A stretch of DNA of 31,300 nt, taken from a virus. The DNA lies in the IMG/VR virus record IMGVR_UViG_3300042465_001285, positions 1 through 31,300 of that record, one strand, 5' to 3'. The notes under the pieces are model-generated. The model saw nothing but the letters and a program-made list of their open reading frames with translations, had not been told where the DNA came from and searched no databases. The position numbers and the translations under genes were made by a program. Position 1 is the first letter of the stretch. The number at the start of each line of letters is the position of its first letter. Shown one piece after another: positions 1 through 21,338 of this stretch.

Positions 1-1582
1 CGCCGAACAATATGCCAAAGCTCAAGCGGCAATAAGAGCGGCCAGTACAGAATCAAAGTTAATTGTTGAAAAATCATCAAATGAAAAAGTAAATTTTCAA
101 CTTAAAGAACAACAAATCGGAAGGGAAGAAGAAGAAGAAGCAAAACGAAAAGCCGAAGAAGCAAAACAACGCGCGGAACAAGCGAGACAAAAAGCGGAAC
201 AAAGAAAAAATGAAGAAATAAAAAGACGTCAAGATTTATTAAAAAATCTAAATGACAACATTAATCGTGAAATAGAAATTCGCGAAAATCTTGAAGATAG
301 CAAAATTAAATTAATGGACGAAGGACTTGAAAAAGAAGTCGCAACCTTAAATGAAACTTATGGCGACTGGCGTCAAGAATTATTAAACAAATCAATTCAA
401 AACGAAATTGAAGCTTTGGATCAAAAGTTTACAAAAGGCAAAATGAGCGAGATTGAATATCGCGCCGAATTGGAAAAAATAAATTTAAGCGCTGTTGAAA
501 AATTATCGGAAAGCGAAAAGGAATTAATTACCGCAAAGGAATTAGAACTTCAAAAAGAAATTTTAAAACTTAAAAAAACCAAGGACGATGCGGAATTATT
601 AGCAGCTGCGGAATTGGAAACCAAAAAATTGGAATTAAGAAAGCAATTTCAAACATTGGTAAACGATGAATTTGAAAATGAAAAAATGAATTTCATTGAT
701 TCTCAAAAAGAACAGTTAAAACAACTTGAAGAAGGTTTAAAAACCGAAGCGATTACCAAAGCGGAATATGACCAGGCGATTATTAAAATGGAAAAGGATA
801 AAATCAAAACGCTTGAAGATATAAACAAAAAAGCTTTGGACGCCAAAAAACTTGCGGAACAAGCGCAACGCGAAGAAAATTTAAAAGGAGTTACGGAAGG
901 ACTTGCCAAAGCGCAACAAGTTTTGGATCAAGTTAAAATCGTAAATGATTTATTAAATGAAATCGGCGCGGCGCGAATCAACAAGATTACCAAAGAACGT
1001 GACGAAGATCTTGAAAGTATTGAAGCTCAAAAACAAGCGGAATTAAATGCCGAAGGATTGACCGCCGAACAAAAGACATCCATTGAAGAAAAGTTCGCAA
1101 AGCAAAAATATGCGGTTCAATTGGACGCGTTCAACAAAGAAGATAAAATCAACCGCGCAAAATTTAACCGAGACAAAGCGATAAAGCTTGCGCAAGTTGG
1201 AATGGACACGGCATCGGCAATCGTTAAAGGAATCGCACAATTCGGGCCGCCACCTTCGCCGGGTGGTATTGCTGCAATCGCATCGGCCGGAATTATCGGA
1301 GTGACGCAAGCGCTTGCAATTGCGAATCAAAAATACCAGGGCGGAACGGCGCCCACAATGCCGAGCGTTTCCGGTGGTGGTGGTGGTGGTGGTGGTGGAT
1401 CAATGGCCGGAACAAGCGGTTCAAGTTTTACCGCATCAACATCGACAACATCGACGTCAACGAATGGACTTCTTCAAGATGCACAAACCGCATCGCAACC
1501 GGTTCAAGTTTTTGTTTTGGAAAATGATATTTCATCTACTCAAAACAAGGTGGCCGTTCAAGAACAAAAGTCAAGTTTTTGA
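1..1582 (+). CDS. Tape measure protein, C-terminal part (5' end outside window)
   Basis: This frame is open from base 2 to the TGA at 1580-1582 and has no start inside the window (526 residues seen). The first 110 residues are charged and glutamate/lysine-rich with heptad-like spacing, followed by more long coiled coil. Near residues 400-445 lies a hydrophobic, Ala/Ile/Gly-rich segment (IVKGIAQFGPPPSPGGIAA), and the tail is rich in Gly, Ser and Thr. This coiled-coil plus late hydrophobic layout is typical of tape measure proteins of Bacteroidetes phages, which set tail length and sit inside the tail tube. The N-terminal half is almost certainly the open frame at 30238-31300. Together they give at least 880 residues, which by the usual 0.15 nm per residue suggests a tail near 130 nm. 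Its last 47 bases overlap the reverse-strand gene. Confidence 0.8.
   Translation, partial: AEQYAKAQAAIRAASTESKLIVEKSSNEKVNFQLKEQQIGREEEEEAKRKAEEAKQRAEQARQKAEQRKNEEIKRRQDLLKNLNDNINREIEIRENLEDSKIKLMDEGLEKEVATLNETYGDWRQELLNKSIQNEIEALDQKFTKGKMSEIEYRAELEKINLSAVEKLSESEKELITAKELELQKEILKLKKTKDDAELLAAAELETKKLELRKQFQTLVNDEFENEKMNFIDSQKEQLKQLEEGLKTEAITKAEYDQAIIKMEKDKIKTLEDINKKALDAKKLAEQAQREENLKGVTEGLAKAQQVLDQVKIVNDLLNEIGAARINKITKERDEDLESIEAQKQAELNAEGLTAEQKTSIEEKFAKQKYAVQLDAFNKEDKINRAKFNRDKAIKLAQVGMDTASAIVKGIAQFGPPPSPGGIAAIASAGIIGVTQALAIANQKYQGGTAPTMPSVSGGGGGGGGGSMAGTSGSSFTASTSTTSTSTNGLLQDAQTASQPVQVFVLENDISSTQNKVAVQEQKSSF
1373..1399 (+). repeat. (GGT)n tract encoding nine glycines
   Basis: Eight GGT codons followed by GGA encode nine consecutive glycines in the C-terminal linker of the tape measure protein. 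Such a tract can change length by replication slippage, each step adding or removing one glycine without breaking the frame. Confidence 0.9.
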
Positions 1583-2213
1583 TCCAGTGACCGCCGGCGG
1601 AATTTATGAATTCATCGCTTGAAGAAAAACAACCGTAATCGCGAAGGAACAATTCGGCCTTCGCAATGTCGCCGGTTGGAAGCTTCAAGTTTGTTCCAGG
1701 TCGAATATTTTTTGGTTGATTGGCATTCAAATAAATTGACTTGATGAAATGGTTGTCATTTTGCCAATTAACTTTGTTGAATGTTTTGATTAATTTTTTC
1801 GCATCCATTAACACCGGCGAATGTGTTTCGAAGTTATAAATTGAATGACCAAAGTATTCCAAGAATTCAATCGAATTTTTGCAAGCGATTTGATAATGTC
1901 CCGGATGTTTTGGATTGATAATTAATTCACCGTTATAAATTGGAACATCGGCGCGAAGCTTCGGAGTGACAAAGAAGTCATCATTCATATAAATGAATTT
2001 TCCGCCGATTTCATTTGCAAAGGTTAAAATCTTGTTTGTCACATCGACACCGCGAATCTTTGAAAAGACCGGACAAGGAATATTTTGAACGCCTTCGATT
2101 TCGTCGCCAATTGTGAAAATCTTTGCCAGGGGAAAAGACATTCGAATCCAACGGATTGATTGAATCAATTCAAAATCGGATGTTCGTTTTTTATAAGGGA
2201 ATACAAAAGTCAT
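1536..2213 (-). CDS. Stealth-like sugar-phosphate transferase (GT-A-type)
   Basis: A 225-residue protein, and the only convincing reverse-strand gene in the window. Around residues 11-35 it has the motif DFELIQSIRWI followed by AKIFTIGD. Near residues 73-80 it has FIYMNDDFF. These resemble conserved region 2 of Stealth proteins (ELxxSLRSI...IxIVTDG...FIYLNDDMF), which transfer hexose-1-phosphates in capsule and cell-wall polysaccharide synthesis; the paired Asp after YMN would be metal or substrate ligands. Length is short compared with bacterial Stealth proteins, so only the core is present. It converges with and overlaps the tape measure gene by 47 bases and is divergent from the protease gene. 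It behaves like a moron: an independently expressed cargo gene, perhaps altering host surface glycans. Family assignment is from motif reading only. Confidence 0.7.
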   Translation of the reverse strand: MTFVFPYKKRTSDFELIQSIRWIRMSFPLAKIFTIGDEIEGVQNIPCPVFSKIRGVDVTNKILTFANEIGGKFIYMNDDFFVTPKLRADVPIYNGELIINPKHPGHYQIACKNSIEFLEYFGHSIYNFETHSPVLMDAKKLIKTFNKVNWQNDNHFIKSIYLNANQPKNIRPGTNLKLPTGDIAKAELFLRDYGCFSSSDEFINSAGGHWIKNLTFVLERPPCFE

Positions 2214-2217
2214 CGAA

Positions 2218-2245
2218 CAAAATTACATAATATAATATGAACAAA
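2218..2245 (-). promoter_or_regulatory. Candidate promoter for the reverse-strand gene
   Basis: On the minus strand TTTG (2245-2242), a 16-base spacer and TAATTTTG (2225-2218) match the Bacteroidetes -33/-7 pattern, although the spacer is short. The -7 box ends only four bases before the ATG at 2213, so transcription would begin at or near the start codon and give a leaderless message. Confidence 0.35.
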
Positions 2246-2836
2246 GAAATTCCAACATACGAAATCTCGATTGACCTGAACGATCAAGAAACAACCGTTT
2301 CATTTAATTCACTTGTATCGATGCCGGCGCATGAAAAAAACTTCATGACATTTTCGAAACAAGTTAAATTTGAATTTAACGACGAAGAACAAGTTATCAC
2401 CGGAATCGCTATTTCGGCCGATACGCCAATTTATAGATTCGACCAAGAAACCGGCGAAGAATATTATGTTGTTTTTACCAAGCAAGCAATTAAAGACATT
2501 ATTTTTGATTATGCCAGGAAAGACAATTTCAACAACGTAAATTTGGAACACAATCCGAATCGAATCGTCAAATCAATCTTCATGATTCATTCATATCAAA
2601 TCGACGCGGCAAAAGGATTCACCGCACCGGAAAGATTCAAGGACGCGAATGACGGATCTTGGATCGTATCTTATAAGGTGACCGACAAAGAATTGTTTGA
2701 AAAAGCAAAGAACGGCGAATTTAACGGATTCTCGATTGAAGGCGTTTTCAACTTGATTGACACAAAAGAAGAACAAGAAATGGCGCTAATTTTTACCGAA
2801 TTATTAAAGTTAAAATTACAAATCGCGAACAATTAA
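2237..2836 (+). CDS. Prohead (capsid maturation) serine protease, XkdF-like
   Basis: 199 residues. The motif NLEHN near residue 103 and GFSIEGVF near residue 163 match the histidine and the serine (GxSxEG) of phage prohead proteases of the XkdF/S78 type. These cleave the scaffold and sometimes the capsid protein during head maturation. The position directly before scaffold and major capsid genes supports the call. The length is typical. The start at 2237 follows the AT-rich leader ACATAATATA (2225-2234), with no Shine-Dalgarno sequence. The last 20 residues run on past the protease core as an amphipathic tail, possibly the contact to scaffold. Confidence 0.8.
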   Translation: MNKEIPTYEISIDLNDQETTVSFNSLVSMPAHEKNFMTFSKQVKFEFNDEEQVITGIAISADTPIYRFDQETGEEYYVVFTKQAIKDIIFDYARKDNFNNVNLEHNPNRIVKSIFMIHSYQIDAAKGFTAPERFKDANDGSWIVSYKVTDKELFEKAKNGEFNGFSIEGVFNLIDTKEEQEMALIFTELLKLKLQIANN

Positions 2837-3438: not shown

Positions 3439-4410
3439 ATGTCACTAAAAAAATATTTAAAGACGTCGTTTGATTACGATGTTGTTGGACTTGCACCGTA
3501 CACTGACGAGCAAAGAGAAGATTTAATCGTTCGTTCGGTTACCGAAGCGCAAACTTTACAATACATTGCGATTCAACAAGGAATCAAAGGAAGCGAAGAA
3601 TTGAAATTAATGGACGATTCAATCGTTTATCAAACGGCTGATTGTTCAATGACACCAGACGGTGACACCGTGTTCACTGATCGTGCAATTTCAGTTGAAA
3701 CAATCGGTTATATGAAAAGATTTTGTCAAAAGGATCTTGCTGGATTTTGGACGCAATTGGCGTTACAACCTGGAGCAATGGCCGAAGACAAAACACTTCC
3801 TTTCGAAGCGCAAATCACTGATTACCTTTTGAAGCTTCACGCTTTCGAATTGGACAAGTTGATTTGGAACGGTAATAAATTAACCGGAACTGGAAACCTT
3901 GCTTTTATGAACGGATTCCGTCAATTCTTAACGGTTGCTGGTGGTTGTGTTAACTTGAACACTTCATCAACGGCAGCAATAAATGTTGGTAACGCTTACG
4001 ACGTATTTTATGAAGCATTCACCAACACACCAACAAACGTTGCGGAAGGCGAAGAATTCATTTGCATGACGGGACGTGAAAATTTCAACTTGTTATTAAA
4101 GAATTTAGTTGATTTAAATCTTTATCATTTTGCACCAGGGGAATTCGCAACAATGAACGAACTTTTATTACCAGGTTCAAACATGCGAGTTGTTAAAGTG
4201 AACGGATTAAACGGAACTGATAATATCTACACCGGAAAATCAAGTCACTTTGTTTTCGGAACTGATTTATCAAGTGACTTCGAATCTTACGATCTTTGGT
4301 ATTCATTCGACGACGACGTGATTTATTTACGATCTAAATTTAGAGCTGGCGTTCAAGTACCTTTCTTGAATCAAATCGGAGTTTGGAACGGAACAAGTTC
4401 ACCGAGCTAA
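3439..4410 (+). CDS. Major capsid protein
   Basis: 323 residues, directly after the scaffold gene and before a GC hairpin. The length and order (protease, scaffold, this gene) fit an HK97-fold major capsid protein; the N-terminal ten residues are basic and the middle contains the mixed alpha/beta pattern expected, with no membrane segment. Codon use differs a little from neighbours (more GGT, GCT, CGT, CCT), as expected for a very highly expressed gene. I recognise the type from Bacteroidetes phages but cannot name a specific family. No cleavage site could be defined by eye. Confidence 0.75.
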   Translation: MSLKKYLKTSFDYDVVGLAPYTDEQREDLIVRSVTEAQTLQYIAIQQGIKGSEELKLMDDSIVYQTADCSMTPDGDTVFTDRAISVETIGYMKRFCQKDLAGFWTQLALQPGAMAEDKTLPFEAQITDYLLKLHAFELDKLIWNGNKLTGTGNLAFMNGFRQFLTVAGGCVNLNTSSTAAINVGNAYDVFYEAFTNTPTNVAEGEEFICMTGRENFNLLLKNLVDLNLYHFAPGEFATMNELLLPGSNMRVVKVNGLNGTDNIYTGKSSHFVFGTDLSSDFESYDLWYSFDDDVIYLRSKFRAGVQVPFLNQIGVWNGTSSPS

Positions 4411-4469: not shown

Positions 4470-5003
4470 ATGAGTTTATGTGATATGATCGCCGGTTATA
4501 ATGACCGGACATGTACAAACGGAAAAGGCGGAATCAAGTCGGTTTTATTGTTTCCTTTGGGTGCGGTGACCGCTTCGACTGTTTTAGCAAATGAAGTAAC
4601 GGCCTTGACTGTTTCCGGTGAAACATTCCTTTACAAGTTGAAAAGCAATTTGTCAAGTTACACCGCACCAATAAAAGTTGACAAGAACAACGGAACGCTT
4701 TGGTATGAACAATCTTTGTCAATGATCCTTGCATCCGATAATAAAGAATTAAGAAGTGAAATTCACTTGTTGGCACAAAACGAAGTTGTTTGTTTGGTTG
4801 AAAATGCTGACGGAACAATTGTTGCGCTTGGATTCGGCGAAGGACTTCAAATCGCGGATGCGAATGAATACACTTCCGGCGTTCTTAAAAGCGACCGACG
4901 TGGACATGTTGTTGTTCTTAATGGAATGGAAAACGACGAAGTGCCTGACGTTGCGCCAGCACTATATGCAACATTATTGTTACAACAATCACCGATTATT
5001 TAA
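4470..5003 (+). CDS. Major structural protein, possibly tail tube
   Basis: 177 residues. The opening MSLCDMIAGYNDRTC and the later GLQIADANEYTSGVLKSDRR belong to a family that follows the capsid gene in many Bacteroidetes phages and is usually listed only as structural. The middle alternates short beta strands. Since a tape measure gene exists, a tail tube protein is needed, and this is the best candidate in the window; a head decoration protein is the main alternative. It ends just before a strong terminator, so protease, scaffold, capsid and this gene form one expression unit. Codon use resembles that of the capsid gene, suggesting high expression. Confidence 0.55.
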   Translation: MSLCDMIAGYNDRTCTNGKGGIKSVLLFPLGAVTASTVLANEVTALTVSGETFLYKLKSNLSSYTAPIKVDKNNGTLWYEQSLSMILASDNKELRSEIHLLAQNEVVCLVENADGTIVALGFGEGLQIADANEYTSGVLKSDRRGHVVVLNGMENDEVPDVAPALYATLLLQQSPII

Positions 5004-9404: not shown

Positions 9405-9566
9405 ATGAACAAGCATTTGAGGTCATTGTCGGTAATGTTTTTTATTGCAGCTTATGGAACGGCAATCGCAATGTATTTCGAAGAACCTTTGTTCTTGAAG
9501 CTTGGAGGCGTTGCGCTTGGAATATTTTTAACATTCCAGGTGATTGAAAAATTTGAAAACAAATGA
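9405..9566 (+). CDS. Small two-segment membrane protein of the lysis cassette
   Basis: 53 residues: a basic start (MNKHLRSLS), a first hydrophobic segment at about residues 9-23, a short polar turn (FEEPLF), and a second hydrophobic segment at about 32-46, ending KFENK. Its stop overlaps the holin start in an ATGA arrangement. Position before holin and amidase suggests a holin partner, either antiholin or second holin. No family recognised. Confidence 0.6.
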   Translation: MNKHLRSLSVMFFIAAYGTAIAMYFEEPLFLKLGGVALGIFLTFQVIEKFENK

Positions 9567-10054
9567 AAATACAATTATTTATTTTATTGGCAAACATCCG
9601 TTTATCATTGCCAAAATTATTGGCGGTTGTTGGTTCGTTTTTTTTACCGATTTCAGGCATTTTGTTCCTGGTTGGATTCGCGATATTTGTCGACACCTTG
9701 ACCGGACTTTGGAAAGCTAAAAAATTAAAGATTTCGATCACATCGCGTAAACTTTCCGCCATTGTTTCAAAAATGTTTTTATATGAATTGGCGGTCATTG
9801 GATTTTATTTGATTGATTTTTGGATCTTAAATGATATTATCATGAAATTCTTTTCCGTTCCTTTAATGTTGACAAAGATCCTGGCATTGATATTAATCAG
9901 TATCGAAACGATGTCCATTAATGAGAACTATATCGCAATTCGGGGCATTTCGATTTTTCAAGCAATGAAGTCACTATTCGCCAGGGCAAAAGAAATAAAA
10001 AACGACATAAATGGAATTAGATCAAACCAAGATAGTTCAACACCGTCTATCTAA
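9563..10054 (+). CDS. Phage holin
   Basis: 163 residues with at least three hydrophobic segments (about 19-45, 70-90, 95-115). The motif VDTLTGLWKAKK followed by SRKLSAIVSKM and later the ISIETMSINENY stretch match the phage holin family common in Bacteroidetes phages (Phage_holin_4-like). It would form inner membrane lesions that free the amidase at the time of lysis. The amidase gene begins 44 bases before its end, in another frame, so the two are tightly linked. Confidence 0.75.
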   Translation: MKIQLFILLANIRLSLPKLLAVVGSFFLPISGILFLVGFAIFVDTLTGLWKAKKLKISITSRKLSAIVSKMFLYELAVIGFYLIDFWILNDIIMKFFSVPLMLTKILALILISIETMSINENYIAIRGISIFQAMKSLFARAKEIKNDINGIRSNQDSSTPSI

Positions 10055-12820: not shown

Positions 12821-13144
12821 ATGAATATTGAAGATATTGAATTTATCGACCGAAACAACGTTTGTATTTATTACGAAATTGACAACATCGAATTTCACTT
12901 AAATTTCACCTGGGAATTCGTTCATTATAATGAAGACGAATACGAAGCAAAAATTGACGTTTACGCCGAAAATTGTGAACAATATATCAACGGCGTTTGT
13001 CATCCATACTTTCCGAGCAGCGAAGAAATGCGCGAAGTGAAATCCGCAATTGAAGACATTGTTCTTCAAGATTTGATTTATTATGGAATTGATGAATGGT
13101 TGGAAAGTAAAGAACTTGACGACGATTATTTTAATGAAAACTAA
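12821..13144 (+). CDS. Acidic early protein of unknown function
   Basis: 107 residues, strongly acidic, with alternating beta pattern in the first 60 residues (VCIYYEIDNIEFHLNFTWEF) and helices after. Three cysteines. The C-terminus DDDYFNEN is very acidic. No known motif seen. The acidic, soluble character resembles DNA-mimic or anti-host proteins, but that is only a resemblance. Ten bases from the gene before, twelve from the gene after. Confidence 0.65.
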   Translation: MNIEDIEFIDRNNVCIYYEIDNIEFHLNFTWEFVHYNEDEYEAKIDVYAENCEQYINGVCHPYFPSSEEMREVKSAIEDIVLQDLIYYGIDEWLESKELDDDYFNEN

Positions 13145-13155
13145 AAACTAAACAA

Positions 13156-13347
13156 ATGAAAAAACCAATTAAACAACAAGAAAACGAATTCACACCAATC
13201 CGGCCGAATGTCATGGCTTGCGTTCGGTGGTGGCGGAATCAATCAGTAAAAGAAGACAAAGGCGGAAGCTTTAATATACAATTATACCTTGACTATTTAA
13301 ACGAACAAGATTTTAATCAACATAAAACTTTTGAAAATGAACGATAA
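13156..13347 (+). CDS. Small early protein, 63 residues, unknown
   Basis: Opens MKKPIKQQENEFTPIRPNVM, then VRWWRNQSVKEDKGGSFNIQLYLDYLNEQDF. A basic, aromatic centre (RWWR) and a helical end. No family recognised. It overlaps the next gene by 11 bases. Confidence 0.5.
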   Translation: MKKPIKQQENEFTPIRPNVMACVRWWRNQSVKEDKGGSFNIQLYLDYLNEQDFNQHKTFENER

Positions 13348-13573
13348 AAAAACGGCGGTTGAATGGTTATCCGAAAATTTAGTAAATGAAATGAATTTTG
13401 ATTATTGGAGTGCAATTGAAAAAGCATTACAAATGGAAAAGCAACAAATTATTGATGCTTATAGAGACGGCCGAAGCGACCAACAATCGGAAAGACAAAG
13501 TAAATTTTACAATAGAATGTCGGAACAATACTACAACGAAACATTTAAAAAGAACCAACATGAACCAATTTAG
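13337..13573 (+). CDS. Small early protein with TAVEWL motif, unknown
   Basis: 78 residues from ATG 13337; a TTG two codons upstream is less likely. The opening KKTAVEWLSENLVNEM with later MEKQQIIDAYRDGR is a plan I recognise from many small proteins of Bacteroidetes phages and prophages, without known function. Mostly helical and polar. Overlaps the next gene by 14 bases. Confidence 0.6.
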   Translation: MNDKKTAVEWLSENLVNEMNFDYWSAIEKALQMEKQQIIDAYRDGRSDQQSERQSKFYNRMSEQYYNETFKKNQHEPI

Positions 13574-13757
13574 AATGATGCGAATAATCAAGTTAATGCA
13601 ATTTCTTCAAGTCAAACCACGACCAATTAAATCAATGGCGCGCTATCTTGGAATTAGTGACCGTTCCGTTTATCGTTACTTAAAAATGTACGAAAAAATC
13701 GGTTACGAAGTAAAAAAAGACATTCATAATAAATATTATATCAATGAAACGATTTAA
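13560..13757 (+). CDS. Small helix-turn-helix regulator
   Basis: 65 residues from ATG 13560. Residues 8-55 form a winged helix-turn-helix of the HTH_11/DeoR-like type: IIKLMQFLQVKPRPIKSMAR, turn, LGISDRSVYRYLKMYEKIGY, then a two-strand wing (EVKKDIHNKYYI). In-frame sequence upstream to 13398 is shadow of the preceding gene. Likely a DNA-binding regulator of early genes; possible sites are the palindrome and repeats upstream of 12508. Overlaps neighbours on both sides. Confidence 0.65.
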   Translation: MNQFRMMRIIKLMQFLQVKPRPIKSMARYLGISDRSVYRYLKMYEKIGYEVKKDIHNKYYINETI

Positions 13758-13890
13758 AGTCACTTATAATTATTTCGAAGGCGGAAACAAACGGATTGCG
13801 ATTCGCATCCTGGAAGCTTACGACCGAGACCATGCAATCAATTTAATGGCCATGTGGCCAAAACTAATTTTAAAAGTAGAAACATTATGA
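13744..13890 (+). CDS. Small early protein, 48 residues, unknown
   Basis: Opens MKRFKVTYNYFEGGNKRIAI and continues ILEAYDRDHAINLMAMWP. Alternating beta strand and helix (beta-beta-alpha). This plan is common among tiny phage proteins, but I do not recognise a function. It overlaps the HTH gene by 14 bases and the DnaA-like gene by four (ATGA). Confidence 0.5.
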   Translation: MKRFKVTYNYFEGGNKRIAIRILEAYDRDHAINLMAMWPKLILKVETL

Positions 13891-14267
13891 TTGAAAGAAT
13901 TAAACAAATTATTGAAGATGAACAATTGAAAAAAAATTGTAATCGACCGGAAAAAGTTTATCGAAGGTGGTTTTTTTATTGCTATTTAAGAAAACAAAAA
14001 TATTTTTTGCGTGAAATTTCTGAAATTTTTTGCAAGCATCACGCCACAATTATTCACGGAATCAAACAAGCGGAAATTTTTGAAAGTCAAAATGATGAAT
14101 TTTATTTGTTGCATACGAAAGATTTATTCCAGGAGTTCAATGACAAAACTTTGTTTTTTGATAAACGAAATTTGATTGAAGATGTTCAAAACGCAAAGAA
14201 TTTTCAAGATTTATGCAAAATTAAACGCCGAATTAGTCAAAACATTTATCAGCGTGACGATGCGTGA
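13887..14267 (+). CDS. DnaA domain IV-like DNA-binding protein, possible initiator
   Basis: 126 residues from ATG 13887, coupled to the preceding gene by ATGA. Residues about 36-70 (YCYLRKQKYFLREISEIFCK, then HHATIIHGIK) match the C-terminal DNA-binding domain of DnaA, whose signature helix is HHSTVIHA and which reads DnaA boxes. No ATPase part is present. The gene runs directly into the iteron cluster: its last codons (QRDDA, stop) are themselves made of the first two iterons. This arrangement fits an origin-binding protein that recognises the repeats; binding is inferred. Confidence 0.65.
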   Translation: MIERIKQIIEDEQLKKNCNRPEKVYRRWFFYCYLRKQKYFLREISEIFCKHHATIIHGIKQAEIFESQNDEFYLLHTKDLFQEFNDKTLFFDKRNLIEDVQNAKNFQDLCKIKRRISQNIYQRDDA

Positions 14268-14522
14268 CGATACCAAGACCGATTGTCACGGGTTGAAAGT
14301 CAACGCCAGTCACAAAACAAGGTCAAAGCGTGACGGTGACGATAGCAAAACAATGAGAGATTCTATTAAAATTGAAAAAGTGGTTTTTTATCTCAATTTT
14401 TTTGAAATTTATCGTCACATCGTCACGCTCGGTCGGAAAGTCAATGTGAGGTTGATTATTAGCCGTGACGATAAACGTGACGATACAAGATTTATCGTCG
14501 CGAAACAAACATTATCGTCACG
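14252..14522. repeat. Iteron cluster, probable replication origin
   Basis: Eleven copies of the 9-mer CGTGACGAT. Exact forward copies: 14253, 14263, 14464, 14476. Exact reverse copies: 14419, 14514. One-mismatch copies: forward 14329 and 14335, reverse 14282, 14411 and 14494. They lie in a 271-base stretch between the DnaA domain IV-like gene and the primase-helicase gene, with AT-rich DNA between and after them (for example 14344-14410 and 14525-14600). Iterons beside initiator and helicase genes with an AT-rich unwinding region are the classical form of an origin. A 170-codon frame open across the cluster is explained by the repeats lacking stops. Apart from the iterons, bases 14268-14659 hold no gene. 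Confidence 0.7.
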
Positions 14523-14533
14523 TTTTGAACATA

Positions 14534-14566
14534 TTTGCAAATTATTGAAAATTTATATTACCTTTA
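14534..14566 (+). promoter_or_regulatory. Candidate promoter for primase-helicase
   Basis: TTTG (14534-14537), 21 bases, TACCTTTA (14559-14566), seven of eight matches to TAnnTTTG counting the free positions. Start would fall near 14573, leaving a leader of about 85 bases that contains the hairpin at 14596-14648. Confidence 0.35.
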
Positions 14567-14595
14567 CAAAGTTAGATGCAGCAAACAAAATTTTT

Positions 14596-14648
14596 AAGGC
14601 CATTAACCGAGTACCGACTGCATCCGGGAAAGGTTCTTGGCTTTTTTT
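14596..14648 (+). terminator. Terminator- or attenuator-like hairpin before primase-helicase
   Basis: GCCA (14599-14602) and AACC (14605-14608) pair with GGTT (14632-14635) and TGGC (14638-14641) across a small internal loop; seven Ts follow (14642-14648). The apical loop is large, so the structure is only moderately stable. It ends 11 bases before the primase start and could attenuate that gene or end early transcription. Confidence 0.35.
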
Positions 14649-14659
14649 AATGACTAAAC

Positions 14660-17062
14660 ATGAACATTCCAAAACTTTCCGTCTTTAAAAGTTTATTTAA
14701 TTCCAAGGAAACGCCATATACTTTGACGATTCTTGATGTTTACGAACGAATAAAAAACGGATATTCCGATCTTAATAAAAAGATTGAACGACTTCGCGCA
14801 ATGGATGAAAATTCCGAAGAACATCGCGCCTTGAAAAATTCACTATTGGCCATTATGTTCAACGGAACATTCAACGAACGAAATGACAACGGCCTTGTCG
14901 AACATTCCGGCCTTTGTGTTTTGGACTTCGACGATTATCCGGATGCCGTCACAATGAAAAACGAACGGGAACGGTTGATGAATTGTCCGTTTGTTTATTT
15001 GGTATTCACTTCGCCAGGTGGCAAAGGATTGAAAGTCGTTATTAAGATTCCGAAATCGACCAAAGATGAACATAAAAGAAGATTCCAATCGTTCGAAAAG
15101 TTCATTCAAAGTGATTATTTTGATAAGACGTCTTGTAATGTTTCAAGGGTATGTTTTGAATCATTTGATCCTGAAGCTTACATCAATGAATTTTGTCAAG
15201 AATTCACCGACATCGAACAAGAAAAAGGATTCGACTTTACTGAAAAAGCGCCAACATGTATATTGACCGATGAAGACAAAATAATTGACCGAATCATGAA
15301 ATTCGATTTCGGTTGTTCATTTATTGAAGGATCAAGAAACGCTTATATTTTTAAGGTGGCTGCATGCTTTTGTGAATACAATATTTCAAAAGATACGGCC
15401 GAATATTATTTGAAGGCCAATTTTATTTCGGAATCATTTACTTTGTCCGAATTGGTATTGACAATAAAAAGCGCGTATAAAAAAGCATCGCCAGGAATCA
15501 AATATTTTGAGAATGTCGATTTGGTTCAAAAGGTTAAACTAAAATTGAAACAAGGCGTAAATTTGCGCGATATTAAAAAGCAATTAAACGTTGACGAAGA
15601 TGTCATCGACGATATCAAAACGGATCTTTCAACTTCCGAAGATATCTTTTGGATAATTGAACAAAAAAAGACCGGCGAATCAATAACAATTGAACCGTTG
15701 AAATATGCTGAATTTTTGGTCAAGAATGGATTCAATAAGTATTATCCGGAAAATGCTGAAAAACCGACATTTGTCCGAGTTCAAGAAAATAAAGTTCGTC
15801 TTTCATCGGCCGATCAAATAAAAGACTTCGTTCTTCAATTCTTGATGTCACGCGGTGAAATTAAAGTTTGGAATTATTGTTCGAAATCAGTTTACTTATT
15901 CAATGAAAATCATTTAAACATGATTGATTCGATTGGATTGAAGATGCTGCAAGACACGAAAGATGTTTCATTGATTCCGTTTCGTAATGGCGTCGCAAAG
16001 GTGACCAAGAATTCCGTCGTTCTTCAATCGTATATTGATGTCGAAGGATATATTTGGGAAAATCAAATCTTAGACCGTGATTTTATTCCAGTTGATGAAT
16101 TCAATAATGACTTTCAAGATTTGATTTCAAAAGTATCGGCCGAAAATCCGGAACGAATTACGGCGCTTGAATCAACGCTTGGATATTTATTGCACACGTT
16201 CAAAGATAAGACCGATCAAAAGGCAATCATTTTCAATGACCAAGAAATTGACGACAACGCAAATGGTGGTTCTGGCAAGTCTTTAATGTTGACGGCATTG
16301 TCTTATATTCGAAAGATTGTAAAGATTGACGGCAAAGCTTTCAATTCGAAAGGTGACTTCGTTTATCAGCGCGTTAATTTAGATACTCAAGTTTTGGCAT
16401 TCGACGACGTTAAAAAGAACTTTGACTTTGAACAATTGTTTTCGTTAATATCCGAAGGAATAACCGTCAACCGAAAAAACAAGGATGAAATATTTATTCC
16501 ATTTGAAAGGTCACCGAAAATAATTATAACAACAAATTATGTTATTGCCGGCGCTGGATCAAGTCACGACCGAAGAAGGCACGAATTGGAATTCTTTCAA
16601 TACTTTAATGCGAAAAAATCACCGCTTGAATTATACGGCCGATTATTATTCGATTCTTGGTCGGTTGAAGATTGGTCAAGGTTCGACAATTACATGATCC
16701 GGAATCTTCAAATGTTCTTGAAGTATGGATTGAAACAATCGATTTCAATTAACGCCGATTCGAAACGATTTATCCAGGCGACAAGCAAAGATTTCTTTGA
16801 CTTTGTAAACGACGGCCACATCGAATCCAACATTCGCCATTACAACAACGCGTCAATCCAATTGTTCCAACAAGAAACAAACGGTTGGAAAGAACTTGAA
16901 TCGCGAAGATATTTGAAATGGATTTCGGAATACGCGAAATATAAGAACTTAGATTTAAGAAAAGAACGCGATCACGGCGGACGGTTCTTTGAATTAATTG
17001 ATGAAGATTCGGTCACAAATCAAGGCGATATTTGGGACGAAATTAATAAACAAGTAAACTAA
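14660..17062 (+). CDS. Primase-helicase (BT4734-like primase domain plus SF3-type helicase)
   Basis: 800 residues. The N-terminal 200 match the BT4734/VirE N-terminal primase-like domain: CVLDFDDYP (D89, D91, D92) and FTSPGGKGLKV. A linking helical part follows (EGSRNAYIFKVAACFCEYNI, about 222-241) like a primase C-terminal domain. The helicase part has Walker A GGSGKS (536-541), Walker B-like QVLAFDD (about 573-579) and IIITTNY (about 615-621), as in superfamily 3/D5-type helicases. It would lay primers and unwind DNA at the adjacent iteron origin. The start follows a hairpin and T-run. It is the largest replication gene; no DNA polymerase is seen, so the host enzyme is probably used. Confidence 0.85.
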   Translation: MNIPKLSVFKSLFNSKETPYTLTILDVYERIKNGYSDLNKKIERLRAMDENSEEHRALKNSLLAIMFNGTFNERNDNGLVEHSGLCVLDFDDYPDAVTMKNERERLMNCPFVYLVFTSPGGKGLKVVIKIPKSTKDEHKRRFQSFEKFIQSDYFDKTSCNVSRVCFESFDPEAYINEFCQEFTDIEQEKGFDFTEKAPTCILTDEDKIIDRIMKFDFGCSFIEGSRNAYIFKVAACFCEYNISKDTAEYYLKANFISESFTLSELVLTIKSAYKKASPGIKYFENVDLVQKVKLKLKQGVNLRDIKKQLNVDEDVIDDIKTDLSTSEDIFWIIEQKKTGESITIEPLKYAEFLVKNGFNKYYPENAEKPTFVRVQENKVRLSSADQIKDFVLQFLMSRGEIKVWNYCSKSVYLFNENHLNMIDSIGLKMLQDTKDVSLIPFRNGVAKVTKNSVVLQSYIDVEGYIWENQILDRDFIPVDEFNNDFQDLISKVSAENPERITALESTLGYLLHTFKDKTDQKAIIFNDQEIDDNANGGSGKSLMLTALSYIRKIVKIDGKAFNSKGDFVYQRVNLDTQVLAFDDVKKNFDFEQLFSLISEGITVNRKNKDEIFIPFERSPKIIITTNYVIAGAGSSHDRRRHELEFFQYFNAKKSPLELYGRLLFDSWSVEDWSRFDNYMIRNLQMFLKYGLKQSISINADSKRFIQATSKDFFDFVNDGHIESNIRHYNNASIQLFQQETNGWKELESRRYLKWISEYAKYKNLDLRKERDHGGRFFELIDEDSVTNQGDIWDEINKQVN

Positions 17063-17068
17063 ACAAAA

Positions 17069-17539
17069 ATGATAAAAATTAAAATTACAGAATCACAAAT
17101 CAAACGAGCAAAGAAATTGTATTCGTTTAACGAATTGAAAAATTCAATCAAGAACGGCGAAGGGAATTTGACCGGCGCGGTTGGTGAAATTGTCGCTTTC
17201 GATTATTACCAGGAACAAGGAAAACTTGTCATTCATTCAGGCGATTTCAATTTTGACTTGTTGATTGACGGATCAAAGATTGAAGTTAAGACAATGGAAT
17301 GTAATTCACCACCAAGGGACGAATATGAATGCAACGTTTCATTATTCAATGCGGAACAAGAATGCGATTATTATTTGTTTGTTGATGTCGATTCAAGTCA
17401 TTCAACGGCATTTATAAAAGGTTATGTTTCAAAGGAACGATTTAAAAAGATTCGCCAATTAAGATTGAAAGGCGAAAAGAATGGAAGCTTCGAGTATAAA
17501 TGTGACACTTTTGTTGTCTTAAATAGTCAATTATCATGA
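17069..17539 (+). CDS. PD-(D/E)XK-type nuclease-like protein
   Basis: 156 residues. GAVGEIVAFDYY (about 37-48) supplies a conserved Glu, FNFDLLIDGSKIEVKT (about 61-76) supplies the Asp and the E-x-K motif; this is the order of a restriction-like nuclease core. Families of this plan (LTGAVGE...YDLLI...KIEVKT) are common in phages and are annotated as putative nucleases or resolvases. A second part (NVSLFNAEQECDYYLFVDV) is typical of the same family. Target unknown. Six bases after primase-helicase; the stop overlaps the next start (ATGA). Confidence 0.65.
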   Translation: MIKIKITESQIKRAKKLYSFNELKNSIKNGEGNLTGAVGEIVAFDYYQEQGKLVIHSGDFNFDLLIDGSKIEVKTMECNSPPRDEYECNVSLFNAEQECDYYLFVDVDSSHSTAFIKGYVSKERFKKIRQLRLKGEKNGSFEYKCDTFVVLNSQLS

Positions 17540-18009
17540 ACAAAGAATCCAAAACAAGATTGAAGGAACTTGAATTCAAATATCTTTCATATCGATATCC
17601 GAGCGCACCAGGTCACACGATACCGTTCACCGTTTACAACGACAAGACCGCAAACGGATTGACAAAATGTATCGTTGATTTTTTAAATTATTCCGACTTT
17701 CAAGCGGAACGAATTAATACAATGGGCGTGTTTCGAAGGTCACGACGAACCGACGGAACAATGACCGAAGGGCAATGGACGAAAGGAACGGGAACACCAG
17801 GGAGCGCCGATATTTCGGCGACGATTTATGGACGTTCGGTCAAGATTGAAGTCAAGATTGGAAAGGATCGCCAGTCCGAAGCGCAAAAGAATTACCAAGC
17901 AATGATTGAACGATCCGGCGGAACTTATACAATCGCCAAAGATTTTGATTCGTTTCTTGAATGGTTTGACAAATTTTGTCTTGACATATCGATAAAAGAT
18001 AAGTGGTAA
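17536..18009 (+). CDS. VRR-NUC domain nuclease
   Basis: 157 residues. The C-terminal half holds GTPGSADISATI (Asp), VKIEVKIGKDRQSEAQ (E-x-K and the basic-Gln stretch) and a final VIxG-like strand (GGTYTIAKDFDSF). This is the VRR-NUC form of the PD-(D/E)XK fold, found in phage replication modules and related to structure-specific nucleases such as FAN1. It may resolve branched DNA produced by replication or ERF-driven annealing. The N-terminal 60 residues are helical and specific to this protein. Its stop lies within a small imperfect hairpin (18003-18019). Confidence 0.75.
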   Translation: MNKESKTRLKELEFKYLSYRYPSAPGHTIPFTVYNDKTANGLTKCIVDFLNYSDFQAERINTMGVFRRSRRTDGTMTEGQWTKGTGTPGSADISATIYGRSVKIEVKIGKDRQSEAQKNYQAMIERSGGTYTIAKDFDSFLEWFDKFCLDISIKDKW

Positions 18010-18094
18010 AAATTGCCACATGTCTTGACAAGAAATGATAAATTTTGCGCAAAGTATGAAAATTAAGTAATAATCACCACAATTAATTAAAATT

Positions 18095-18313
18095 ATGAAA
18101 GCAACAATCGAATACAATTTACCGGACGATCAATTCGAATTTGACAACGCCGTCAAGTCGAATAAAATGTGGCACGCTTTGACCGAAATCAAAGATGAAC
18201 TTCGAAGAATTTGGAAATACGAAGATCTTAAAGAAAATCAATTCGAAATGGTTGAAAGGATTCGCGAAAAGTTTTTTGAAATATTACAAGAAAATGAAAT
18301 AAATCTTGATTAA
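18095..18313 (+). CDS. Conserved small phage protein, unknown
   Basis: 72 residues: MKATIEYNLPDDQFEFDNAV, then KMWHALTEIKDELRRIWKY and a long helix with REKFFEILQENE. I recognise this as a widespread small protein in replication modules of phages from many hosts; its role is not known. The 85-base gap before it holds TAAATTTTG at 18039-18047, a -7 box with one extra base, so a weak promoter is possible. Confidence 0.7.
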   Translation: MKATIEYNLPDDQFEFDNAVKSNKMWHALTEIKDELRRIWKYEDLKENQFEMVERIREKFFEILQENEINLD

Positions 18314-18315
18314 AA

Positions 18316-18346
18316 ATTGTATTAATGAAATAATTGACTATCTTTG
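18316..18346 (+). promoter_or_regulatory. Bacteroidetes-type promoter for recombination genes
   Basis: ATTG (18316-18319), 19 bases, TATCTTTG (18339-18346): full match of the -7 box and a TTG -33 element at good spacing. Transcription would begin near 18352, about 20 bases before the ERF start at 18372. Confidence 0.6.
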
Positions 18347-18371
18347 ATAAAATTAAACTAAACAAATTATT

Positions 18372-18917
18372 ATGGATGCAAAACAACCGGCGGTCAAAAC
18401 ACCGTCAAAACCAATCAAACCGATTGGAATTTATGCGCGATTACATTGCGCGAAACAATCAATTGGAAAGGTCGCAAAGAACGCGACGAATCCACATTTT
18501 AAAAAGAATTATTCCGATATCAATGCTTTGCTTGAAACGGTTGAACCAGTTCTTTGGGAAAATGGCCTTGTCTTATTACAACCAATTAAGGACGATGTTG
18601 TCATGACACAAATCGTTGACATCGAAACCGGTGAAATGATTGAATCTTGGATGAGGTTGCCAATGATTACCGATCCGCAAAAGATACTTTCCGCAATCAC
18701 TTATTTTCGTCGTGGAACGCTTCAATCAATGCTTGCCTTGCAATCTATTGACGACGACGGACAAACGGCATCAGCAGCGCCAAAAAACAAACCAGCGATT
18801 ACAACGGAACGATTTGAAAAAGCTTTGCTTGCAATATCTAAAAAAGAATTCACCGTTGAACAATTAAAGTCAACTTATTCATTGACGGATGTTCAATTAA
18901 AAGCGATTGAATTATGA
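18372..18917 (+). CDS. erf: ERF-family single-strand annealing protein
   Basis: 181 residues. NPHFKKNYSDINALLETVEP with LWENGLVLLQPI and the later DPQKILSAITYFRRGTLQSM, then LALQSIDDDG, follow the ERF family order (YADLxxIxxxxxPxLxxxGL...YxRRYxLxxxxGxxxDDD). Such proteins coat single strands and anneal complementary DNA in phage recombination, in place of RecA. The last 50 residues are a separate small helical domain, likely for partner binding. It has its own promoter and overlaps the exonuclease gene by four bases, forming a Red-like pair. Confidence 0.8.
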   Translation: MDAKQPAVKTPSKPIKPIGIYARLHCAKQSIGKVAKNATNPHFKKNYSDINALLETVEPVLWENGLVLLQPIKDDVVMTQIVDIETGEMIESWMRLPMITDPQKILSAITYFRRGTLQSMLALQSIDDDGQTASAAPKNKPAITTERFEKALLAISKKEFTVEQLKSTYSLTDVQLKAIEL

Positions 18918-19534
18918 AATGGCATCCTTCGTCATTGGGAAAACTAATGACAACGCCAAAATCAAAAGGCGAGAATTTAAGTCAAGGCGCGAAGACGTAT
19001 ATTCGCCAGGTGGCAAAGCAACATTTTTTCAATTACCGGATTGAACTTGACAACAAGTATATCAACAAGGGAAATGATCAAGAACAAGATTCAATCGACT
19101 TATTGAATGCCGTTCGGTTCACTAACTATAAAAAGAACGATGTTCGACTTGAAGACGAATACATGACCGGCGAATGCGATATATTGGCCGATGACCGAGT
19201 AATCGATATCAAGACATCTTGGAATTTGGAAACGTGGCCGGCAACATCAAGCGAAGCTCATGACAACGATTATGAATGGCAAGGTCGCGCATATCTAATG
19301 TTATACGATCGCGAGATCTTCGAACTTGTTTTTTGTATGGTAACGACCAAAGATGAATTCTTGAACCAGTGGGAACAAATCGACATTCATCGCGTTGATC
19401 ACATTGCACCTGAAAAGCGAATCACTTCGGTAATTTATGAACGTGACTTGGATAAAGAAATATTGATTCGTGAAAAATTAATCTTCGCTAATGAATATTA
19501 TTCGCAATATATTAATGAATTAAATTCGAAATAA
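18914..19534 (+). CDS. YqaJ/lambda-exonuclease-like recombination nuclease
   Basis: 206 residues. The order matches PD-(D/E)XK viral exonucleases: opening MKWHPSSLGKLMTTPKSKGE, then NKGNDQEQDSIDLL (Glu), GECDILADDRVIDIKTSW (Asp and the D-x-K form of E-x-K), and YEWQGRAYLML (Gln-containing helix). Such enzymes chew one strand of duplex ends so that the annealing protein can act. The ATGA overlap with the ERF gene supports joint work in recombination, repair or making of concatemers. Confidence 0.75.
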   Translation: MKWHPSSLGKLMTTPKSKGENLSQGAKTYIRQVAKQHFFNYRIELDNKYINKGNDQEQDSIDLLNAVRFTNYKKNDVRLEDEYMTGECDILADDRVIDIKTSWNLETWPATSSEAHDNDYEWQGRAYLMLYDREIFELVFCMVTTKDEFLNQWEQIDIHRVDHIAPEKRITSVIYERDLDKEILIREKLIFANEYYSQYINELNSK

Positions 19535-19758
19535 TGGCAGCAAAAGAAAAGGCAAAAGAATTGTATTTAAAAATGTTGCATTGGCAAGTTGAAATGAATA
19601 CATGTATTGAAAACGATATCATTTCAACATCGGCTCAAGAATGCGCGTTGATTGCAATAAATGAAATGATTGACATGCGCAATGGACTTTATCTAAATGA
19701 AGGCAGCATCGTTCATCAATATCTTTTGGATGTTAAACAAGAAATACTAAAACTATGA
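19534..19758 (+). CDS. Conserved small phage protein (KEKAKELY type)
   Basis: 74 residues beginning MAAKEKAKELYLKMLHWQ, with CALIAINEMIDM and a closing helix. Similar all-helical small proteins are frequent in replication regions of phages from Bacteroidetes; role unknown. The start shares one base with the preceding stop (TAATG). Confidence 0.65.
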   Translation: MAAKEKAKELYLKMLHWQVEMNTCIENDIISTSAQECALIAINEMIDMRNGLYLNEGSIVHQYLLDVKQEILKL

Positions 19759-19859
19759 CACTAATTATCTTAACAATTTTAATGATTCCGGCAATGGTTG
19801 TCGGATGGCTCGCATTCGGCTATTGGATGTATGAATATTATAAAAACAAAAAACAATGA
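19755..19859 (+). CDS. 34-residue membrane peptide
   Basis: MTLIILTILMIPAMVVGWLA, then FGYWMYEYYKNKKQ: one hydrophobic segment over the first 25 residues and a basic tail. It overlaps the genes on both sides by ATGA, so it looks deliberately placed in the operon. Too short for family assignment. Confidence 0.5.
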   Translation: MTLIILTILMIPAMVVGWLAFGYWMYEYYKNKKQ

Positions 19860-20176
19860 ATTACACTATTGAAGGAAAAATTGTGGTTGTCACCGAGACA
19901 ACACAAATCACCGAGAAGTTCGCAAAGCGCGAAATCGTAATCGAAACCGATGACAAATATCCACAACAAGTCATGCTTGAATTTAGCCAGGACAAATGTC
20001 AATTGCTTGATGAATGCAAAGTTGGTGACCAGGTTCAAATCGGATTCAACATTCGTGGCCGGGAATGGAATGGAAAGTATTTCACACGCCTGGAAGGTTG
20101 GAACATAAAGATTGACATTTCAAACGAAACTAAAAACGATATTTTAAATGAAATCAATGACGATCTACCTTTCTAA
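19856..20176 (+). CDS. SSB-like DUF3127 protein
   Basis: 106 residues. The strand order GKIVVVTETTQI, KFAKREIVIET, VMLEFSQDK, GDQVQIGFNIRGREW, YFTRLEGWNI is that of DUF3127, an OB-fold family of Bacteroidetes and their phages. The acidic C-terminus ending NDDLPF is like the tip by which bacterial single-strand binding proteins recruit partners. I infer a single-strand DNA-binding role next to ERF and exonuclease. Length is typical of the family. Confidence 0.8.
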   Translation: MNYTIEGKIVVVTETTQITEKFAKREIVIETDDKYPQQVMLEFSQDKCQLLDECKVGDQVQIGFNIRGREWNGKYFTRLEGWNIKIDISNETKNDILNEINDDLPF

Positions 20177-20189
20177 TAATGAAACCTTA

Positions 20190-20357
20190 ATGGATTTCAT
20201 GATGAAGATGACAAAGGACAAAATATCCAAGCGATATAAAATGAAACATTTGGCCGAAGACATTGGCGTTTCTTATGCAATGCTTCATCGATTTCTAAAT
20301 AATAAACCAGTCGGACAAATCTTTTTTGTTAAATGGTTCGATTTTTTTATAATTTAG
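20190..20357 (+). CDS. Small XRE/Cro-like HTH protein
   Basis: 55 residues from ATG 20190; an in-frame ATG at 20148 lies inside the preceding gene. KHLAEDIGVSYAMLHRFLNN is a clear helix-turn-helix of the XRE/Cro type, followed by a short hydrophobic end (IFFVKWFDFFII). The family-typical third part is shortened. Likely a DNA-binding regulator; its last codons overlap a candidate promoter for the sigma-like gene. Confidence 0.5.
   Translation: MDFMMKMTKDKISKRYKMKHLAEDIGVSYAMLHRFLNNKPVGQIFFVKWFDFFII
20325..20357 (+). promoter_or_regulatory. Possible promoter before the sigma-like gene
   Basis: TTTG (20325-20328), 21 bases, TAATTTAG (20350-20357): one mismatch in the -7 box. The start codon of the sigma-like gene is at 20362, so a message from here would have almost no leader. 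Weak. Confidence 0.25.
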
Positions 20358-20841: not shown

Positions 20842-20992
20842 TTTACCGCAATTCAAACCGTTCAATTGTTTGTCTTGTCTTTCGTTTTGGACGGCGGTTG
20901 CAATTTATTCATTCGTTGATTATCGAATGATTCCATTGGCGTTCGTTTCTTATTTATTATCCGATTTAATTTTGATTTATGAAAGTAAGTGA
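20789..20992 (+). CDS. Small membrane protein with CxxC
   Basis: 67 residues from ATG 20789, starting 53 bases inside the end of the sigma-like gene. Hydrophobic segments at about 1-13 and 30-60 with NCLSCLSFW between. I recognise this plan (two or three membrane segments, CxxCLSFW) from small proteins of Bacteroidetes phages; role unknown. Overlaps the next gene by 14 bases. Confidence 0.6.
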   Translation: MIYIIIAVAIARALTSFDLPQFKPFNCLSCLSFWTAVAIYSFVDYRMIPLAFVSYLLSDLILIYESK

Positions 20993-21338
20993 CGGCCTTC
21001 TTTACCAGGCGAATCAATTTTCAAAAACGCGTTCATTCAGCTTGAACAATACAATGAAGGATGAACTTGGAAAAATATATCATGAGCTTGGTCATGGCGT
21101 ATTGAATAAGCAATGCGCAACTTGCGTTCGGATTGCAATGGATCGTTTGAATTATGAATTGATGCGCGGTGACCTTCCGAAGCTTATTCAAAAGACGGAT
21201 GTCAAACCAACGCTTCATTTCATCGGCGTCAAACAAAAGACATTCAACGAGCTTCGAAGCGAAGCGAAGGAAAAAGGATTCAAGGCGACAAGGACAACGA
21301 CACGCGAAGACATCGAAACATTCTTGAACAATGATTGA
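20979..21338 (+). CDS. Small protein with CxxC and a SAP/HeH-like end
   Basis: 119 residues. The middle has KQCATCVRIAMDRLNYEL, a Cys pair on a helix common in small phage proteins. Residues about 88-118 (FNELRSEAKEKGFKATRTTT, then REDIETFLN) resemble the helix-extension-helix SAP/HeH motif that binds DNA or anchors larger proteins. Function unknown; a packaging or DNA-linked role is possible since the terminase genes follow. The stop overlaps the next start by eight bases. Confidence 0.6.
   Translation: MKVSDGLLYQANQFSKTRSFSLNNTMKDELGKIYHELGHGVLNKQCATCVRIAMDRLNYELMRGDLPKLIQKTDVKPTLHFIGVKQKTFNELRSEAKEKGFKATRTTTREDIETFLNND

Follow-up and report, generated by a model that had tools for sequence, protein, structure and literature searches.

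A Stealth-like transferase gene set antisense between the tape measure and protease genes of an uncultured phage lineage

Phages carry extra genes known as morons, each with its own promoter and placed at a junction where, in relatives, two genes directly adjoin. Moron genes as an idea, glycosyltransferases borne by phages and the Stealth fold are all already known. The Stealth proteins include the hexose-1-phosphotransferases GNPTAB and Mycobacterium tuberculosis CpsY, and in the accessible part of the report on the latter (PMC10668966) members of the group make capsular polysaccharides and share the motifs IDVVYTF in CR1 and the tetrapeptide CLND or CIND in CR4. The same text gives a 200- to 500-fold loss of activity for the E305A, N322A and D324A substitutions of CpsY and complete loss for R419K.

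The window, by which we mean the whole stretch of DNA analysed, is a virus record of 31,300 bases. Both of its termini fall inside the gene for the tape measure protein (TMP), and comparison with five relatives suggests that the TMP lacks a short central segment, so we regard the record as near-complete but not closed. An original prediction, made from the letters of this DNA, had picked out a reverse-strand gene opposing its neighbours and overlapping the end of the TMP gene by 47 bp, and this arrangement is confirmed, the TMP frame ending where the prediction requires it (Table 1). Tail-to-tail overlap with the TMP gene is found in all 14 representatives compared, with a range of 9–50 bp, and 23 bp separate the transferase start from that of the divergent protease gene. 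The further statement that every other gene runs forward is supported in that forward ORFs tile the window, but the minus-strand ORF 9442-9798 lies partly in a gap. For this ORF (118 aa, ATG start), counterparts of 81–86% were seen only in two close relatives. All remaining minus-strand ORFs of at least 100 aa overlie forward ORFs, and most of them have a TTG start. Profile searches covered the forward ORFs and the transferase ORF.

Table 1. Positions of the transferase gene, its flanking genes and its principal sites in the window
Feature	Position	Strand	Remarks
Stealth-like GT-A transferase ORF (P0001, 225 aa, phrog_7999 relative)	1536-2213	-	ATG start, stop codon
TMP, C-terminal part, flanking gene	2-1582	+	
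XkdF-like S78 protease, flanking gene	2237-2836	+	Pfam PF14550, E 5.1e-12
Tail-to-tail overlap of transferase and TMP genes	1536-1582		47 bp
Candidate Bacteroidota-type -7 promoter box TAATTTTG	2225-2218	-	4 nt 5' of ATG; predicted transcription start at the A of ATG
Codon N60, 17 residues ahead of N77	2034-2036	-	Putative position of CpsY catalytic Glu305, equated by spacing
Codons N77-D78-D79, NDD motif	1977-1985	-	N77 and D79 invariant in 38 rows
Codon K158	1740-1742	-	Arg in actinophage relatives

The transferase ORF is a genuine gene under purifying selection. Its dN/dS against 19 relatives is 0.129–0.265, and across 20 sequences the variable columns number 139, 65 and 39 at codon positions 3, 1 and 2, respectively. 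Homologues were found at 262 loci, 245 of them full-length, 15 cut by a contig end and 2 with an early stop, and the positions invariant in a 38-row alignment include N60, N77, D79, H131, P133, K158 and Y161. The early stop falls at residue 175, and the two loci that carry it (L033 and L199) are one contig. The idea of a chance antisense frame without function could draw on the antisense placement, the TMP overlap and that one contig, but purifying selection, the retention of fold and family and the predominance of full-length homologues (the 15 cut loci being truncated by contig ends only) make it scarcely credible, and this candidate was rejected on the dN/dS values.

The sequence alone places the protein only at a distance from described families. 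Pfam Stealth_CR2 (PF11380) scores 14.1 bits, where the cut-off is 39.4, and matches 11 of 22 family members at E ≤ 1 (best 0.00098); the actinophage relatives from Ruthiejr (28.1 bits) and BrutonGaster (25.3 bits) also fall below the cut-off. The PHROG family phrog_7999, of function unknown, matches residues 1–166 of 225 with an E of 2.1e-11 and two other clades of the family with 1.9e-15 and 1.6e-11, and relatives of its Ruthiejr member occur in 50 actinophage records among the matches listed. A tblastn search of 50,697 phage records with the window protein gave no match, whereas a member of another clade matched actinophages; the capsid-region protein of the window (MCP) found no match in the same records. 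NCBIfam brought no gain for the identity of the transferase, PADLOC gave no match, and Stealth_CR2 was not found in the genome containing the MAG contig L082.

The link to Stealth enzymes emerges when the actinophage relatives are included. A profile of the window clade alone (A1) retrieved no Stealth enzyme from the PDB. The profile of the window clade plus actinophage relatives (A2), run against 177,635 distinct PDB sequences, listed eight, of which the best five are Stealth enzymes (GNPTAB of zebrafish, human and fly, and CpsY; E 5.2e-7 to 1.1e-3) and the remaining three are unrelated, with E 0.22 or worse; the Ruthiejr protein by itself reached GNPTAB just at E 0.88. In hhalign comparisons the window clade aligned with the actinophage family at 98.9% over residues 1–190, and the actinophage family with nine bacterial Stealth proteins at 98.5%, with CR2, CR3 and CR4 matched in order; when the window clade was aligned with the bacterial proteins directly, the link was weak (57%, residues 18–143). 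The nine proteins came from 16 Pfam-Stealth loci, those left out being L131 and L140-L142 (no frame with the motif filter), L132 and L144 (mixed frame) and L143 (start motif). The A2 matches in the PDB and this chain of alignments support placing the protein inside the GT-A/Stealth group.

Structure prediction agrees. A first model, built on a 22-row alignment, had a pLDDT of 77, and a second, on 38 rows, reached 93 with a pTM of 0.89 and about 217 residues confidently folded. Compared with known structures over residues 1–218, the second model matched eight Stealth phosphotransferase entries with Z 14.3–16.2 and rmsd 2.8–3.3 for 197–211 aligned residues, and the ninth row was a core-2 N-acetylglucosaminyltransferase with Z 10.4. 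The same eight entries headed the comparison for the first model (Z 9.6–10.8 versus 8.7 for the next), and Foldseek ranked CpsY first with both models. On these models the transferase has a Stealth/GNPTAB-type GT-A fold. The Stealth identity proposed originally is accordingly upheld at the level of fold and of the profile chain via actinophages, but not by the CR2 score or by the CR1 and CR4 signatures: IDVVYTF was not found in the transferase, where MTFVFPYK stands in its place, and neither was CLND or CIND, the corresponding stretch reading GCFSSSDEF.

Comparison with CpsY suggests that the active site is altered too. N77 and D79 fit N322 and the metal-binding D324 of CpsY, and D78 between them is replaced by Lys in three of the nine window-clade rows of A2. 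If spacing is a guide, N60 would occupy the position of E305. The basic residue following the H-x-P signature lies 27 residues past His131 here, as K158, and 29 past the His in Ruthiejr, as Arg; the same interval in the bacterial Stealth protein of L135, counted by eye, is 28 or 30. By this spacing K158 is probably the counterpart of R419 in CpsY, and hhalign placed the K158 stretch differently from this match. Two catalytic positions therefore seem changed relative to the Stealth phosphotransferases (E305 to N60 and R419 to K158), and the transferase is, as its residues read, no textbook Stealth enzyme. Because the CR2 match is below the cut-off and these two positions are seemingly substituted, Stealth-type phosphoglycan (hexose-1-phosphate) chemistry cannot be assumed, and on this point the original prediction is not supported as written.

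The position of the gene was followed across relatives. A gene search left 80 loci, 79 with a flanking gene in view, and the transferase runs opposite to it in all 79. As these loci had been fetched via the transferase itself, others were fetched via neighbouring genes. With the protease as query the transferase lies antisense directly upstream in 69/69 loci with enough DNA (11 of 80 had too little upstream), and with the capsid-region protein at 3439-4410 it occupies the same antisense place in 48/48 (18 of 80 had no protease in view and 14 too little DNA). These two sets have no start region in common, and 39 of 58 and 33 of 43 of their distinct start regions, respectively, also occur among the transferase-fetched loci. 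A further clade (L305-L317) has the gene in 13 of 13 loci.

In a nearby clade (L318-L326), by contrast, the transferase is present in none of nine loci, and in the eight whose TMP gene is visible that gene directly precedes the protease gene, with 21–94 bp between them in the five printed; L324, with 244 bases ahead of its protease gene, cannot show the junction. This TMP-protease junction is a natural empty site. Whole-record searches on the transferase-lacking side found the gene in 0/9 and 0/2 records, many of them fragments, and the control searches returned one copy in each of 11 transferase-bearing records; an HMM run over loci L318-L404 found it in 0/87, several contigs being included twice. 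Among more distant loci a long forward ORF stands directly before the protease gene in 10 of 12 printed. Eight such ORFs were scanned, and four match tape-measure families (E 4.6e-4 to 1.5e-8); the other four match only phrog_21917 (function unknown), besides one weak spanin match, so that these are presumed TMPs, judged by their size and location.

Trees of the protease, the capsid-region protein (without L338) and the TMP (without ten rows) nest the nearby clade within the transferase-bearing group, which corresponds to one gain and one loss, and the S78 protease and MCP trees contain well-supported branches that force those two changes. Holding the transferase-bearing rows together was not rejected by the AU test for the capsid-region protein (p 0.303) or the TMP (p 0.415), and a fourth gene (4470-5003) unites these rows in a single clade, modestly supported (84/49). 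To account for these trees, a single gain with no more than one loss is enough. The original description of the gene as a moron is supported as regards anatomy, with an empty site in relatives and a conserved promoter-like box ahead of the gene, but not as regards distribution, since the gene is not patchy. A recent, patchy moron was rejected, as no neighbour-fetched spanning locus lacks the gene and, leaving the overlap aside, the gene's GC content of 0.376 is close to the 0.383 of the window. No integrase was recognised among the window ORFs scanned.

The region ahead of the gene is conserved as well. The 52 distinct start regions (45 bases upstream and 12 of the gene, from 116 loci) all contain TAnnTTTG, placed 4 nt (34 regions) or 6 nt (18 regions) ahead of the ATG, with nn being TT, AT, AA, TA or TC and never containing G. 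Across 23 divergent representatives the box keeps its six fixed positions, and the TTC after it, without change, while the n positions vary. Invariant bases also occur upstream of the -7 box and exceed the promoter consensus, so part of the conservation in this region may serve the divergent protease gene. The -7 elements of Flavobacterium johnsoniae read TAHHTTTG at -12 to -5, with the start 4–5 nt downstream, in the accessible part of PMC6847099, and by that spacing the predicted start of the transferase message is the A of the ATG or 1–2 nt before it. The mRNA is thus predicted to be leaderless or nearly so, a class that makes up 5.5% of mRNAs in F. psychrophilum according to the available text of PMC9723704. 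Within the window alone, such a box occurs 3–7 nt before an ATG 10 times versus 2.9 expected, and because the pattern is not rare there, it is the conservation across relatives that carries the promoter claim. An E. coli-type promoter is not favoured, as sigma70-like sites between positions 1000 and 3000 are no commoner than chance (6 observed versus 5.6 expected in shuffles). The candidate promoter announced for this gene is supported in the form of a conserved -7 box. One 9-of-12 sigma70-like match does lie directly upstream, at 2255-2227 on the minus strand, and may be the promoter seen earlier. Minus-strand hairpins that might serve as a terminator occur at 1354-1339 and 1356-1341, but such sites are no commoner in the region than in shuffles (3 versus 2.9). 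The promoter type, together with a BT4734-like primase domain (E 8.5e-18), leads us to propose a Bacteroidota host, which the lineage probably infects.

Taken as a whole, we consider it likely that the gene encodes a minimal Stealth-fold GT-A enzyme and forms a self-contained unit of promoter and ORF, inserted backwards between the TMP and protease genes, that became a core gene, is expressed mainly early and transfers a sugar or sugar phosphate. The enzyme would depend on a nucleotide sugar and probably on a metal. A unit of host-type promoter and ORF would have entered, most simply once, between two adjacent genes and become fixed in an uncultured phage lineage whose hosts are probably Bacteroidota. 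The host's RNA polymerase, carrying the housekeeping sigma factor, would start at the ATG or just ahead of it and yield the (nearly) leaderless message. As the gene is independent of the late operon and opposed by it, expression would fall mainly early, before late transcription crosses, and the enzyme would then transfer its sugar or sugar phosphate to an acceptor. It is doubtful, if conceivable, that the backward placement is itself a control device, in which late TMP transcription interferes and restricts an enzyme of altered chemistry and leaderless mRNA to early infection, the divergent start and the 9–50 bp overlap being kept for that reason.

The surroundings offer little to name the acceptor. 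Apart from the transferase, none of the window ORFs scanned could be recognised as a sugar, capsule or envelope gene, which leaves no pointer to the acceptor, and the genes present in 8/8 transferase-bearing and 0/5 transferase-lacking records are five of the replication/recombination region plus the transferase; as this contrast separates replication/recombination-region genes only, no acceptor gene stands out. Our guess, with the chances about evenly balanced, is a host envelope glycan or host protein; a virion protein we guess to be the acceptor with distinctly lower probability, and some other molecule with lower probability still. The favoured reading is early action directed at the host. 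A host acceptor is preferred over a virion protein because expression is independent of the late unit and the nearby clade keeps its head and tail genes without the transferase. Two observations run the other way, the location among structural genes and the placement of the relative in the Streptomyces phage TurkishDelight, adjacent to the major tail protein with a second glycosyltransferase close by.

Three functions can be weighed on this basis, none of which we rate as probable in itself. The first, put forward in the original prediction beside the idea that the gene might hide the infected cell, is superinfection exclusion, in which an early enzyme alters the receptor polysaccharide and so blocks adsorption of later phages. 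The host-type promoter box and the moron-like insertion fit such a role, as does the making of capsular polysaccharides by Stealth relatives noted above (PMC10668966); no flippase, anchor or partner gene was recognised, however, and the catalytic positions seem unlike those of the Stealth phosphotransferases. We regard it as possible, and as the leading one of the three. Somewhat less likely is decoration of one of the phage's own capsid or tail proteins, with the gene placed next to the tail and head genes because that is where the enzyme's substrate is produced. In every spanning locus it sits between the TMP and the head protease, the TurkishDelight member has the major tail protein on one side and the head-to-tail adaptor on the other, an annotated glycosyltransferase standing beyond the tail gene, and glycosylation of virions by phage glycosyltransferases is described for mycobacteriophages in the accessible portion of PMC12363180. 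Yet the gene opposes the late unit and carries a host-type promoter box, the nearby clade has head and tail genes without the enzyme, and five of the eight actinophage contexts examined are away from structural genes. The family member is inside a glycosyltransferase cluster in Rasputia, just past rIIA/rIIB-like genes in Cece and Zooman, upstream of terminase in Ruthiejr, near a tail protein and a methyltransferase in Gaia, and near replication genes in BrutonGaster and JonJames. The contexts beside replication or rIIA/rIIB-like genes would suit a third function, an intracellular transferase acting on a host protein, nucleotide or DNA in host take-over or counter-defence, but the window ORFs scanned included no recognisable gene for base hydroxylation or any other base modification and PADLOC was silent, and we hold this to be unlikely, a little more so than decoration of the virion. 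DNA glycosylation in particular is not supported, given the lack of a recognised base-modification gene among those ORFs.

As far as the literature shows, in the parts available, what is new here is the Stealth identity of phrog_7999 and of the distant clade of the window, with its seemingly changed catalytic positions, and a gene that is fixed, antisense and probably leaderless and whose empty site is seen in a nearby clade; among the open-licence papers listed on Stealth and phage, on morons of freshwater Bacteroidetes phages and on leaderless genes in Flavobacterium or phages, the gene is not described in the titles or the beginnings of the abstracts. A family that carries the label 'unknown function' in PHROGs, its members being called 'hypothetical' in those 50 actinophage records among the matches listed, thereby gains an identity at the level of fold, and it includes laboratory-grown phages of M. 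smegmatis and Gordonia. The empty and filled TMP-protease junctions form a pair within a single uncultured lineage, and with an antisense gene of the late block that is conserved and probably leaderless, timing and function become directly testable.

Set beside the known systems, the window gene resembles the morons of tailed phages in adding a promoter-like box and an ORF between genes that are adjacent in relatives, but it is fixed in its lineage, overlaps the TMP gene tail-to-tail and has no clear terminator. With the virion glycosyltransferases of the mycobacteriophages Che8, Corndog and Myrna it shares, by description only and in the available part of PMC12363180, the character of a phage-borne glycosyltransferase. 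Its predicted model has the fold of the Stealth hexose-1-phosphotransferases, and the window protein differs from them in comprising only about 217 folded residues. The phrog_7999 family, exemplified by gene 5 of Mycobacterium phage Ruthiejr, has the same NDD, H-x-P and (K/R)-(S/T)-x-Y signatures; the window protein is 15–23% identical to eight actinophage rows, Lys158 is present in 9/9 window-clade rows where Arg stands in 8/8 actinophage rows, and the window gene lies antisense between TMP and protease, whereas the actinophage members examined lie within forward gene runs.

The replication/recombination region of the window, which is GT-bearing (i.e. carries the transferase gene), looks like a module swap relative to the five GT-lacking records in the comparison with L421-L430, since it has no counterpart in them at E 1e-3 despite the many head and tail genes that they have in common with the window. 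On comparison of the tape measure with that of five relatives, a short middle stretch is seemingly missing.

Features of the window
Feature	Position	Strand	Remark
Tape measure gene	1-1582 + 30238-31299		Split over both record ends
Second minus-strand ORF	9442-9798	-	118 aa; overlaps holin gene
Replication/recombination region	12821-20357		Erf-like annealing protein, exonuclease, SSB
Candidate TAATTTTG box up to the ATG of the next gene	20967-20979		Box lies 4 nt upstream of that ATG
Gene upstream of terminase genes	20979-21338	+	

The second minus-strand ORF is probably spurious; its counterparts are confined to two close relatives (81-86%). The spacing of the candidate TAATTTTG box to its ATG matches the predicted leaderless arrangement of the transferase gene.

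A shortened copy of the transferase gene, ending prematurely at residue 175, is present on a single contig that was retrieved as both L033 and L199. Further afield, bacterial genomes (L140-L142) gave matches to the Pfam profile Stealth_CR2 below threshold, two of them in short frames of 237-238 aa, and the L141 frame, the sole one viewed, resembles the phage transferase family by eye. These loci may be prophage or chromosomal relatives of that family. Two large Microbacterium phages (L124 and L128) carry rIIA/rIIB-like genes followed by a gene of the phrog_7999 type, the PHROG family related to the window transferase.
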